Positions 16,798 through 45,264 of a stretch of DNA of 64,000 nucleotides are shown here, one piece after another. The DNA lies in assembly GCA_947493005.1 (NCBI GenBank), contig CANLOY010000005.1:186001-250000 (forward strand). Reading direction: 5' to 3'. Position 1 is the stretch's first letter. The number at the start of each line of letters is the position of its first letter. A program made the translations under genes and the position numbers. This DNA comes from an uncultured Roseivirga sp. (GTDB lineage: Bacteria; Bacteroidota; Bacteroidia; Cytophagales; Cyclobacteriaceae). Under the pieces are notes generated by a model. The model had not been told where the DNA came from. It saw only the letters and a list, made by a program, of their open reading frames with translations, and did no database searches.

Positions 16798-16857
16798 TCA
16801 GTGAAATATTGATAGCACAAAGTTATGGTTTGTGTTGTCGTCAACCCTGAAATTTGT

Positions 16858-40078: not shown

Positions 40079-40768
40079 TTACTGATTCGAAGGTATCTTG
40101 ACAACATTATAGATCGCATGAAGCCTGCCTCTTTCAATAGCCCAACCAACGTTTCCATAATCGAAATGCCAGTACTCTTTAAGATCGCAAACAAAGCCTT
40201 CTTTTTCAAAGAGTCTCATCAGTAGCGTCCTGTTCTCTCTTGCCTCTGCAGATATATCTGGGTGGTGGGGATAACAGTGTTCGGTTAAATCAATGTCATA
40301 TCCTTTATTAGTGCCAAAATTCAAGACAGACTTCGTTTTCTTGTCATAAATCAAAGCATCAACAGCTCCTCCAGTGGCATGGGTGGACTTTTGTTCAGAC
40401 GCTATGAAACGGGCGACAAGTTCTTTTAACTGTGTCAGAGACTCTTCAGGGTGCTTTTTTTGAAGAAGCATCAGTTTATTATTCCATAACTTCCTTTGAT
40501 GTTCGAAGGACCGCCAGGCAGACCGTATGATCAAAGTCTTGTTTTGTTTATCCAGGGTCTGGCTTATTCGGCCAATTTTCTCTACCAATGCCTTACGAAC
40601 CAAGTATTGATAGTCTTTCACTATTGAAGGTTCGAAGATTAGGTTGAATCCAGCACTCAACAGACTGACTAACACCTCATGATTTTCTTTAATGGGAAAG
40701 GAGGGTTCCAACTGCTTATGCAATAAATCCTGTCTGTTTACATAAGCACAATATTCCTTAGCGTTCAT
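40079..40768 (-). CDS. M15-type D-Ala-D-Ala dipeptidase (VanX/DdpX-like)
   Basis: KSTHATGGAVDALIYD metal site and EYWHFDYGN. Confidence 0.85.
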   Translation of the reverse strand: MNAKEYCAYVNRQDLLHKQLEPSFPIKENHEVLVSLLSAGFNLIFEPSIVKDYQYLVRKALVEKIGRISQTLDKQNKTLIIRSAWRSFEHQRKLWNNKLMLLQKKHPEESLTQLKELVARFIASEQKSTHATGGAVDALIYDKKTKSVLNFGTNKGYDIDLTEHCYPHHPDISAEARENRTLLMRLFEKEGFVCDLKEYWHFDYGNVGWAIERGRLHAIYNVVKIPSNQ

Positions 40769-40772
40769 TGAC

Positions 40773-41834
40773 CTATTCTACAATTAATTTGGAGACATAA
40801 GAAGATGTCATGAGTGAAAGTAGCGCATTATAGTTGATATTGAACCGTACTTCTTGCCCTACCTTTAAATTGGTTTTACCTGTATCTACCACGATATGGT
40901 CACTGCTGGAGGAAAGGATGTCAATTTTCGATAAAGGAGTAAGGTCAGAGATCATAACGTCTTGTTGGCCAATGCCTAAAAGTGCTCTTTTTATAGTGCC
41001 TCTATCTTTGAACGAAGGCTTACACCCAGCAGCATTTTGACCTATAATGCCAAAAGGAAGGCTTGGTTTGGACTGTACTTCGATGGCTTCGGCCACTAGT
41101 TGAAAAGCATCTGTAAACAAACCCGGGATTGGCTTTCTGTGTATTGTTTCGCAGCCGAGAAAAATGGACTCACCTAATCGGAGATCATTGACCCGACCAA
41201 TGTCAGTGGTGTGCATAAACCAATGATAGTTGGCCGAATTACCACCGGAAATGACCTCTAACTTTATTCTGAACTTCTTTTCGACTGAATTGGCAATAGC
41301 TGAGAGTTGATTCATATTATTTTCATCAGGTATAATTCCTCCCATGCATGCCAGGTTGGTGCCTAACCCCATTAGTCTCAGCCCTTTTAATTCCAATAAT
41401 TTGGCAATAGTTTTATCCAGTTCATCCGGCATAAGGCCTTCTCTTAAATCACCAAGTTCTACCATTAAAATTACCTGATGAATTAGACCAAGTTCCAAGG
41501 CAAATTTCGAAAGCGCCCTGAGGATCACTATTTCTGAATTAAGGCTGCAATCTGCGTTTTGAACGACTTGCTCAACCTGACTGAGCATCGGGCCTCTTAA
41601 TAGTAGGAAATGGGCTTCAATTCCGTTTTCCCGCATGTTTATGATGTTGCCAAGCCGTGAATCCCCAAGTGTCTTGATACCGCTATTAATGAGTGTTGCG
41701 ACAATCTCAGAATGACCGCATATGGCTTTGGTCACACCACTTACCTTGATGCCATTTGACCCATAAAGATCAACAAGGGTTCGTGCATTATGGGCTATTT
41801 TTCGCAGATTTATTTCTATTCGAGGTGATATCAT
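40773..41834 (-). CDS. PLP-dependent alanine/ornithine racemase family protein
   Basis: SGVTKAICGHSEIVATLINSGIKTLGDSRLGNI; LEVISGGNSANYHWFM; RLGESIFLG. Confidence 0.87.
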   Translation of the reverse strand: MISPRIEINLRKIAHNARTLVDLYGSNGIKVSGVTKAICGHSEIVATLINSGIKTLGDSRLGNIINMRENGIEAHFLLLRGPMLSQVEQVVQNADCSLNSEIVILRALSKFALELGLIHQVILMVELGDLREGLMPDELDKTIAKLLELKGLRLMGLGTNLACMGGIIPDENNMNQLSAIANSVEKKFRIKLEVISGGNSANYHWFMHTTDIGRVNDLRLGESIFLGCETIHRKPIPGLFTDAFQLVAEAIEVQSKPSLPFGIIGQNAAGCKPSFKDRGTIKRALLGIGQQDVMISDLTPLSKIDILSSSSDHIVVDTGKTNLKVGQEVRFNINYNALLSLMTSSYVSKLIVE

Positions 41835-42901
41835 TTGAGACTCAAAGGGAGTAGATATAAACGCGATAGCTGTGCGACAAGCTTGTCACAACCTTGAGTA
41901 AGCACATCTGTCACCGGAATTCTGTGTTTTTCTTCGTATTGAACAATATGGCTATCCAGTTCCTTGTCAGTCATTCCCTCATGGTTGAGCGTTATGGCTA
42001 CTACTTTTGATTTGGAAAAAACCTCCAGAAGCTCTATTTCACTAACTATTGTTGGCATTTGGTAGTCTGGAAAATCACAACGCGTTTTTCTTTTCGGAGG
42101 GTGTTGTAAGATGATGGCATTGGGCATAGCCCCACGAATAATGGCTGAAGAAGAGGTGAATGCGGGATGACCCAATGCTCCTTGCCCTTCGACAATAATA
42201 ATGTCTGGTTTTTCTTCTTCATACGCGGTTACAATCGCATGCTCTACAGCACCACTGGCAAAGCCTGAGCTGAGCATATCTACAGCAAAACCATATTTGG
42301 CTCCCTGAAGTAAGCCTGTTTGACCTGTGGCAATGAAAACTACTCTTATTCCTTCAGCTCTTAAAGCTTTTACTAATTCTACGGCTGTGGTTCTTTTTCC
42401 TACAGCACAGTCAGTGCCCAACACTGCAACTACCGGTGCTTTTACTGTTTTGATTTTACCAGTAAACGAATGCAAATGCTTTCTTTTTAAAGGTTTTCGG
42501 ATATCATAGATTTTCACTCCAAATTCTGCGGCACTTTGAGCCAATTCAGGATCATCAGAGAAGAATTCAGGAAGTCCATTCACAATGTTCATTCCCATTT
42601 TCATGGCTGAAAGGATTACTTCACGATCTTCATTGCCAATAACAGGTGTTAGAGGTGCGATGCCATAAATGAAGTATTTTGGAACTTGGCTCAGGTTAGC
42701 AATGGCCTCATAAATACTGTGAAAAATAGGTATACCATTTTTCACACCATCTAAGTGTTCACCTGCATCCATAACGTTTTTGGTGCTATCGATCACTCCA
42801 ACAATTTTGAATTTTTCCGAATGTCGGACTAACCCATTGGCGACTTTCCCATCTAATTTTCCAAACTCGTTTTCACAATATATTAATGCTTCTGATTCCA
42901 T
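41831..42901 (-). CDS. DUF1611 / DgcN-like protein (P-loop NTP-binding)
   Basis: APVVAVLGTDCAVGKRTTAVELVKALRAEGIRVVFIATGQTGLLQGAKYGFAVDMLSSGF; IIIVEGQGALGHPAF. Confidence 0.85.
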   Translation of the reverse strand: MESEALIYCENEFGKLDGKVANGLVRHSEKFKIVGVIDSTKNVMDAGEHLDGVKNGIPIFHSIYEAIANLSQVPKYFIYGIAPLTPVIGNEDREVILSAMKMGMNIVNGLPEFFSDDPELAQSAAEFGVKIYDIRKPLKRKHLHSFTGKIKTVKAPVVAVLGTDCAVGKRTTAVELVKALRAEGIRVVFIATGQTGLLQGAKYGFAVDMLSSGFASGAVEHAIVTAYEEEKPDIIIVEGQGALGHPAFTSSSAIIRGAMPNAIILQHPPKRKTRCDFPDYQMPTIVSEIELLEVFSKSKVVAITLNHEGMTDKELDSHIVQYEEKHRIPVTDVLTQGCDKLVAQLSRLYLLPLSLK

Positions 42902-42973: not shown

Positions 42974-43177
42974 TTATGATTTCCTGAGTGGTTCAACTAG
43001 CTCTCGCTCATAGTAAACCAATTCATCATCTTCAGGGGCATCGACTATTTTGCAGTAGTAAACTCTATGCACGTAACGTCTGATGATCAAAGGAATGGAG
43101 GGGCACTCTTTGGCATAAACGACTTCTCCTTCTTTGAATTTGTTGTCCAGGCTTGGTTTAAATCGATCCATTCCCAT
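42974..43177 (-). CDS. Small conserved Bacteroidota-type hypothetical protein
   Basis: KFKEGEVVYAKECPSIPLIIRRYVHRVYYCKIVDAPEDDELVYYERELV; overlaps the upstream ORF in operon orientation. Confidence 0.65.
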   Translation of the reverse strand: MGMDRFKPSLDNKFKEGEVVYAKECPSIPLIIRRYVHRVYYCKIVDAPEDDELVYYERELVEPLRKS

Positions 43178-43529
43178 ATTCTTCTGGTCTTTTCATTTCA
43201 ACAAATACGTCTTCTTGTTTTGTGTCTATTGGAATTAATTGAAGTAGCAAAGGTGACTGCTTATCTTTCCTTGTATTGAGTGTAAACCGATTACATACGG
43301 TTTTTAGATAAGTAAAGACCTTAGATGTGACTTGATTCCATGCGTTGAAAACTTCTCGATAAGTACCTAAAATTGAATTGTTCAGGATGTCGAAGAGATT
43401 GGATTTGCTGACTTTCAAATTAGTCAAAACTAGCTTTCTTCCATCAATGCTATTAGCAGCATAATAATGATGAAATGAATTGCTTTTCTTTTGATTGATA
43501 TTCGCTATTTTAAGTTGTCTTTTGTTCAT
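43158..43529 (-). CDS. Hypothetical protein
   Basis: 123-aa ORF with a candidate promoter at 43554-43609. Confidence 0.6.
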   Translation of the reverse strand: MNKRQLKIANINQKKSNSFHHYYAANSIDGRKLVLTNLKVSKSNLFDILNNSILGTYREVFNAWNQVTSKVFTYLKTVCNRFTLNTRKDKQSPLLLQLIPIDTKQEDVFVEMKRPEEYGNGSI

Positions 43530-43553: not shown

Positions 43554-43609
43554 CAAAACTGATAATAATCACTTGGCTATACGTTACAGATTGCTAAGCA
43601 AGGGTTACA
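43554..43609 (-). promoter_or_regulatory. Stress-type promoter motif S1
   Basis: Minus strand: TGTAA-N16-TGTAA-N22-CAGTTTTG. Confidence 0.55.
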
Positions 43610-43772
43610 TAAACCTCACATGAATTATTAAAGAAAATCTTTCAGATGATCCTTCCCTACTTATTGACGTCTGAAAGTGTAAGCCCAAAGAATTGACTGC
43701 AACCTTAAATGTCTTCAAACAGGGTATTAGCCAAGTTCAATGGGCTTAAAAGATGTCTTAATAATCAATGGG

Positions 43773-43898
43773 TTATAAATCATTGGAGGTACGAAGCTTC
43801 TCGTTCCGTTTCTCAGCTTTAGCCGCACGTTTTTCCTTTAGTGTTTTGGAAGCCGGGGTTTTTCCGGATTTTTCTTTTCCATTTTTTTCTTTCGACAT
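43773..43898 (-). CDS. Small highly basic protein (41 aa), not in supplied ORF track
   Basis: Reverse translation MSKEKNGKEKSGKTPASKTLKEKRAAKAEKRNEKLRTSNDL*; own promoter motif at 43929-43984. Confidence 0.7.
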   Translation of the reverse strand: MSKEKNGKEKSGKTPASKTLKEKRAAKAEKRNEKLRTSNDL

Positions 43899-43928
43899 AT
43901 CTATACTTTACGGGTTCAAACTCTTTCT

Positions 43929-43984
43929 TAAAGGTGCGTTTTATCATGAATGGGCGCCTTACATCGAAGTCATAAATACTTACA
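43929..43984 (-). promoter_or_regulatory. Stress-type promoter motif S3
   Basis: Minus strand: TGTAA-N16-TGTAA-N22-CACCTTTA. Confidence 0.5.
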
Positions 43985-44039
43985 GATATGCCATATTTCT
44001 TTATTGTGACTTAAGGTTTTTAGAAAGCTTGTGATTGAG

Positions 44040-44315
44040 CTAGTTCCTGCGAGTCAAATTTCGCCTGGTTTTGAAACGTATTTGCACGCCCCTTTTTGGA
44101 AAACTCTTTTCCAGAATCCGCATTACTTCTTCACGTGAAAGCATCAATCTGCCTTCTACTTTATTCAATAATTCATGTTCTGCACCAAAAGCAAATTGTA
44201 AATCTTCATTGGTCAATTGAGGATATGCCTTCTGGAGTAGCTTTGACTGTTTTAACCAATCCCCCTTTATTTTAAAGGTCATTCCACTTCTATAGTATAC
44301 TATTTTTGAGCTCAT
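44040..44315 (-). CDS. CsbD-like stress protein with C-terminal basic tail
   Basis: IKGDWLKQSKLLQKAYPQLTNEDLQFAFGAEHELLNKVEGRLMLSREEVMRIL resembles CsbD; start at MSSKIV because the -7 element lies upstream of 44315. Confidence 0.65.
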   Translation of the reverse strand: MSSKIVYYRSGMTFKIKGDWLKQSKLLQKAYPQLTNEDLQFAFGAEHELLNKVEGRLMLSREEVMRILEKSFPKRGVQIRFKTRRNLTRRN

Positions 44316-44336
44316 TTCTTTCGTTTTTACATGGTG

Positions 44337-44392
44337 CAAAGCTGGCATCTATCTACTCACGGAATATTACATTTTATGAAATCAGGCTTACA
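44337..44392 (-). promoter_or_regulatory. Stress-type promoter motif S2
   Basis: Minus strand: TGTAA-N16-TGTAA-N22-CAGCTTTG. Confidence 0.55.
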
Positions 44393-44466: not shown

Positions 44467-44691
44467 ATGGACAAGCACATCTTGCTTTCAATGGGATTAC
44501 CAATGCGCATCCGAAGCCGTGCTGGGAAATGTGCCACAGTAGAAATGAACAAGGGTTTTTTTGTGGTTTGCAGGTTTCATCCAAATAGCAGCCTATATCT
44601 GAACGATGCTAATCTCCAAGGCTGGTACCCAGTTAACTACCTATCTCGAATTATCTATATGATTAAAAACAAACTTCGGCAACATGCCTGA
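44467..44691 (+). CDS. Hypothetical small protein
   Basis: 74-aa ORF, plausible composition, no recognised motif. Confidence 0.4.
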   Translation: MDKHILLSMGLPMRIRSRAGKCATVEMNKGFFVVCRFHPNSSLYLNDANLQGWYPVNYLSRIIYMIKNKLRQHA

Positions 44692-44703: not shown

Positions 44704-45264
44704 TCAGAGGTTTTCGAGATTGGATTTTCTTTGTTCTTTGAGCTTTTTGTAAAAGGAAGGAGTCAGACCTGTTATCTTCTTGAACTGATTGGACATATGA
44801 GCGGCACTACTGTAATGCAGCTTAAACGAAATTTCTGATAAAGTGAGTTCATCATAGAGTATCAATTCTTTTACTCTTTCTATTTTATTGAGAATGATGA
44901 ATTGCTGTATTGTCAATCCATTCACCGCTGAAAAAGTATTGGCCAAATAGGTGTAATCATAACCTAGTTTTTCACTGATGTGATCTGAATAGTTTACCTT
45001 TGGTAATTCATCAGAATGATGGATCATTTCAATAATCACATTTTTTATTCTATCTACCAGAATACTTTTCTGATCATCGAGCAGTTCCAAGCCTGAGCGC
45101 AGTAAATTGGCCCTCAATAGTTCCCGTTGTTCATTGGAAAAACTACTGAGTATCTCTACCGCACCTAATTCCACTACGGCATGCTTTAATCCCAACGTCT
45201 CTAATTCTTGCTTCACAAGAATTTTGCAGCGCAAGCTTACCATATATTTAATATAAATTTTCAT
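44704..45264 (-). CDS. AraC family transcriptional regulator
   Basis: LTLSEISFKLHYSSAAHMSNQFKKITGLTPSFYKK. Confidence 0.9.
   Translation of the reverse strand: MKIYIKYMVSLRCKILVKQELETLGLKHAVVELGAVEILSSFSNEQRELLRANLLRSGLELLDDQKSILVDRIKNVIIEMIHHSDELPKVNYSDHISEKLGYDYTYLANTFSAVNGLTIQQFIILNKIERVKELILYDELTLSEISFKLHYSSAAHMSNQFKKITGLTPSFYKKLKEQRKSNLENL

Follow-up and report, generated by a model that had tools for sequence, protein, structure and literature searches.

Three short elements on the minus strand of the window (the whole 64-kb stretch of DNA that was analyzed) are, judging from their sequence, very probably operator-promoters through which an AraC-family protein, the product of the minus-strand gene at 44704-45264, would activate a small stress-type regulon. 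The regulator, its putative operators and the associated promoters constitute a real, conserved and probably undescribed unit. A description of the circuit was not found in the open literature searched, most subscription papers being outside its coverage.

The three elements conform to TGTAA-N16-TGTAA-N22-CANYTTTR, with coordinates and spacings exactly as given in the original prediction. P1 (TGAGG-N4-TGTAA-N16-TGTAA-N22-CAGTTTTG; 43554-43618, of which 43554-43609 spans the repeat to the -7 element) is the candidate operator/promoter of a 123-aa gene, P2 (TGTAA-N16-TGTAA-N22-CACCTTTA; 43929-43984) that of a 41-aa gene, and P3 (TGTAA-N16-TGTAA-N22-CAGCTTTG; 44337-44392) that of a CsbD-like gene; their PWM scores are 31.3, 24.0, and 17.0. 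The identity of P1 and P3 over AGGTTTATGTAA, also part of that prediction, was confirmed. The start codons lie 24, 30, and 21 nt past the -7 elements of P1, P2, and P3, respectively. P1-P3 hold the only exact TGTAA-N16-TGTAA repeats of the window, and a PWM scan of the window gave positive scores at these places only, the next best scoring about -10. An equivalent of P2 precedes the same 41-aa gene in Roseivirga sp. E12 (L119 10566), and equivalents of P1 were located at L119 10929 and L120 11069. The suggestion that P1-P3 share an operator class with the NRPS genes was not supported: nothing similar was detected in the window by repeat search or PWM, and the 250 nt preceding each of the two large ORFs at 16825 and 27489, taken as the NRPS genes, contain no direct repeat of at least 7 nt with a period of 20-22 bp.

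The genome scan that had been proposed gave a divided answer. The bare TGTAA-N16-TGTAA repeat occurs at chance level in the genome of origin (42 matches, compared to 46 in a backwards control), and was dropped as a genome-wide signal. The full composite, TGTAA-N16-TGTAA-N22-YANNTTTR, is rare: pattern searches of the 4.9 Mb returned four exact matches, three of which are P1-P3, and only one further match at one mismatch. The fourth exact match (C2:661302) was treated as a chance occurrence; no place around it has a positive PWM score, the best in that locus (L031) being -23.9. The composite was defined after the fact on P1-P3, which makes independent genomes the decisive test. The exact composite ending in NANNTTTG was found 34 times across 59 genomes of the order, compared to 2 times in the backwards control, and a phylum-wide scan of 249 genomes (counts summed by hand) yielded 99 sites, compared to 15 control matches.

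The architecture of the element was resolved in 80 loci carrying AraC orthologues at least 68% identical to the window protein, most of them spread over Bacteroidota and a few on Ignavibacteria-type contigs. These loci were picked by the AraC gene, so the site density near the gene is partly a matter of ascertainment; unbiased scans are weaker but agree. At a spacing of 16, equal to a repeat period of 21 bp, the loci contain 80 pairs of TGTAA boxes; most other spacings have about 10 each, and the reversed control has 12 pairs at 16. TTTG lies exactly 26 nt past the second TGTAA in 49 cases, and at any other offset in four cases at most. Both the box spacing and the -7 position are sharply peaked, and the predicted activator-type geometry is supported. 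A smaller peak at TGTAA-N20-TGTAA was set aside, as it derives mostly from coding sequence of repeated Chryseobacterium AraC genes. The logo of 58 sites reads AACRTGTGAWWTRTGTAA-N16-TGTAAYAYTT, followed by a free stretch and CCAnCTTTG, with an additional conserved TGTGA-like box 9 bp upstream of the distal TGTAA, which P1-P3 match only in part. A PWM derived from the sites scored above 8 bits at 154 places, compared to 0 in reversed sequence. The -33 consensus is absent, and 51 of the 58 sites begin the -7 element with C or G, whereas upstream regions of these loci overall most often have T there. These two features fit an activator-dependent promoter.

Several observations connect the element to one clade of AraC proteins. 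Among the homologues found in the 59 genomes of the order, all 12 closest ones (L061-L072, 100-51% identity) have a site within 1.5 kb, with scores of 11-57; among the other 18 (L073-L090, 51-33%), some of which bear CxxC, positive scores were obtained only for L080 (11.1) and, weakly, for L081 (3.6), and reversed loci never exceed -4.6. When composite sites were collected without reference to the AraC gene, 19 of 34 in the order and 24 of 66 in the phylum lay within 10 kb of an AraC homologue. Sites are present in 13 of the 20 phylum genomes that have a close AraC gene (E up to 1e-60), compared to 28 of the 229 that do not (Fisher p 4e-7); the remaining 7 of the 20 have no site at the two-mismatch level. 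Two genomes of family f31 (G069 and G074) carry 8 and 7 near-consensus sites with an AraC homologue only 33% identical, and in seven genomes of genus g51 a recurrent site lies 2-3 kb from a paralogue 39-41% identical. Most of the matrix sites (120/148) lie 3' of the AraC gene, on the strand that encodes it. In about 26 of the 148 (L119-L198), the first TGTAA begins 8 nt past the last AraC sense codon, so that the TGA stop codon of the regulator forms part of the TGTGA box. A 21-bp unit (AGGCCGTGAAAGAGTTGTAAG) repeated in tandem beside the AraC homologue of L078 (2164-2460) mimics the repeat period, and was rejected as an operator array.

The window gene at 44704-45264, overlooked in the original prediction, is probably the cognate regulator of P1-P3, as its position and clade membership suggest; it lies just upstream of the sites, 0.3 kb from the first of them (P3), on the same strand. 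A 74-aa ORF without a Pfam match (44467-44691), a putative gene, occupies the opposite strand between this gene and P3. The 186-aa product, whose closest relatives are from Roseivirga (87%), carries a C-terminal double-HTH AraC domain (Pfam HTH_18, 8.8e-15; HTH_AraC, 4.7e-12). Its AF2 model (pLDDT 85) consists of a b-a-b-b-a-b N-terminus followed by the AraC double HTH. Foldseek matched the C-terminus to AraC/MarA-type HTH domains with a probability of 1.00, and the N-terminus, more weakly, to GolB (TM-score 0.67, probability 1.00), Atx1, and HAH1 (both 0.99), with E-values of only 0.14-0.19 for these three matches, the query being the whole two-domain model. Residues 1-62 are thus predicted to adopt an HMA-like ferredoxin fold, and the Pfam HMA model did not detect this domain in the window protein. 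The metal-binding CxxC motif is replaced by SxxC in 79 of 79 motif-bearing orthologues, the second cysteine being invariant, which makes classical metal binding by the clade unlikely. The HMA-like domain may read a stress signal via its single conserved cysteine, and a thiol-based signal would be our guess. The paralogues L020, L073, and L074 keep CxxC. The first of these, a second AraC/HMA gene of the same genome (L020 915-1475; C3:485839), directly precedes an HMA+MauE gene (1561-2277), and has another conserved stretch, TTACAA..TCAA.CCCA.AAT, in common with L073 and L074, suggestive of a separate operator code for the metal-type CxxC clade. The TGTAA-N16-TGTAA downstream of this paralogue was not counted as a site (PWM -12.3; TTTG absent from the right place).

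The candidate targets begin with a 91-aa CsbD-like protein (44040-44315, minus strand, as are all genes below), whose ATG is 21 nt past the TTTG of P3. The window protein gave no match to Pfam CsbD (PF05532); an HMM built on CsbD-like proteins that stand behind the motif in other genera recovered it at 2e-24, and one member of that homologous cluster passes Pfam CsbD (55.2 bits; cut-off 40). P2 precedes the gene for a basic 41-aa KEKRAAK protein (43773-43898), and P1 that for the 123-aa protein (43158-43529), orthologues of which stand behind the motif in L119 and L120. The latter ORF is overlapped by that of a 67-aa YYCK protein (42974-43177), which is probably on the same transcript, in a possible operon headed by the 123-aa gene. 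This operon perhaps continues through the genes for a DUF1611 (DgcN-like) protein (41831-42901; Pfam DUF1611, 3.1e-69; same order in L119 and L120), an ornithine/alanine racemase-like protein (40773-41834; NCBIfam racem_Orr, 2.2e-119, below cut-off; synteny), and an M15 peptidase (40079-40768; Pfam Peptidase_M15, 2.1e-10; synteny), the last being its possible end. In L142 a motif precedes the DUF1611 homologue.

The gene order in Roseivirga sp. E12 (AraC, site, KEKRAAK, site, 116-aa, 67-aa, DUF1611, racemase, M15 peptidase) equals that of the window except for the extra CsbD-like gene of the latter. Judged by sequence signature, 23 sites in 22 loci are followed by CsbD-like proteins, and sites in 14 loci by KEKRAAK proteins, in 8 by the YYCK family, and in 15 by cupins; in 4 loci the target is itself an AraC-type gene. 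Further targets include SPFH, YtxH, universal stress protein, NfeD-like, response regulator, and outer-membrane genes, where all names other than YtxH, cupin, and CsbD come from a reading of the sequences. Each target family of the window is thus found behind the element elsewhere. The original view that the three small genes share one regulatory element, and that they look like a stress-type set with a CsbD-like member, is supported. CsbD is stress-associated in other bacteria, and we infer that the CsbD-like gene and the other targets are under stress control.

In the proposed mechanism, the AraC protein, probably as a dimer, would bind the direct repeat of 21-bp period that the TGTAA boxes form, with the extra TGTGA-like box further upstream. 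The proximal TGTAA occupies the place of the Bacteroidota -33 element, and the bound protein would bring RNA polymerase to a weak -7 element (NAnnTTTR) that lies a fixed 22 nt away. The CsbD-like, 41-aa, and 123-aa/67-aa genes would thereby be activated, forming a small stress-type regulon. Direct binding by the product of 44704-45264 is the most likely arrangement, and the geometry of the sites points to activation rather than repression.

Control might instead be exerted by another DNA-binding protein, such as a LytTR-type response regulator, an OmpR/PhoB protein, or a CRP/FNR protein reading TGTGA, with the AraC gene as a co-regulated neighbor. LytTR proteins likewise use direct repeats about 21-22 bp apart, AraC-type genes are among the targets in four loci, and the many sites of G069 and G074 occur where a close AraC orthologue is absent. 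However, site presence follows AraC clade membership, the co-occurrence of site and gene across genomes is strong (p value above), and a CRP/FNR protein would need an inverted repeat, none of which is seen in the logo; we regard this explanation as unlikely. The sites could also be repressor operators, at which the AraC-type protein blocks the -33 region until released by a ligand or metal, a role suggested by the overlap of the proximal box with that region and by the metal binding of many HMA domains. The fixed phase to the -7 element, the missing -33 consensus, and the weak -7 element fit activation instead, and the regulator clade lacks the CxxC motif, making repression rather improbable.

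An alternative (ECF-type) sigma factor reading TGTAA as its -35 element, with the repeat as a secondary feature, would account for the location of the proximal box at about -33/-35 and for the unusual C/G in place of T at the first -7 base. It is nonetheless very unlikely, given that the downstream element keeps the AnnTTTG typical of a housekeeping Bacteroidota promoter, and that the distal TGTGA/TGTAA boxes are strongly conserved though outside sigma contacts. That three AT-rich upstream regions merely resemble one another by chance is hardly conceivable; the background frequency of the bare repeat is what such a resemblance would predict, but the rarity of the composite, its excess across genomes, the spacing peak, the PWM control, and the clade link all contradict it.

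If P1-P3 are operators of the AraC protein, the system offers a defined regulator whose operator is resolved to the base, together with a promoter architecture and a list of targets, and points to a rule for designing regulated promoters in Bacteroidota. We know of no established counterpart of sigma-B, RpoS, or PhyR-EcfG as a general stress regulator in this phylum. A phylum-wide general stress response, built on an AraC-type activator, a metal-less HMA-like thiol/redox sensor with one conserved cysteine, -33-less promoters, and a rigid 21-bp direct repeat, is a tentative extension that we consider doubtful at present. The candidate targets come from culturable genera, among them Chryseobacterium, Echinicola, Algoriphagus, and Dyadobacter, which puts the question within reach of experiment.

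Among known systems, the closest are the class II activators of the AraC/XylS family, including E. coli AraC at araBAD I1-I2 and MarA/SoxS/Rob, with which the window protein shares the C-terminal double HTH. The 21-bp direct repeats of I1-I2 next to the promoter are established, and class II activators use this period with the proximal half-site over the -33 region. The window sites likewise present 21-bp direct repeats abutting the promoter, with the proximal half-site over -35/-33, where binding is predicted from sequence. Unlike these activators, the window protein has an HMA-like rather than a cupin N-terminal domain, its sites have a Bacteroidota -7 element, and its targets are stress-type small proteins. 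The predicted b-a-b-b-a-b fold of residues 1-62 resembles the HMA domains of GolB, Atx1, and HAH1, although the window clade has SxxC in place of CxxC and is fused to an AraC HTH. Relative to the housekeeping Bacteroidota promoter (TAnnTTTG at -7, TTTG/TTG at -33), AnnTTTR is retained at the -7 position, whereas the -7 element starts with C/G and an operator box replaces the -33 consensus. The CsbD-like, YtxH, and UspA-type targets are reminiscent of the CsbD-containing stress regulons of Bacillus sigma-B and E. coli RpoS (YjbJ); control here, however, apparently runs through an AraC-type activator site rather than an alternative sigma factor.
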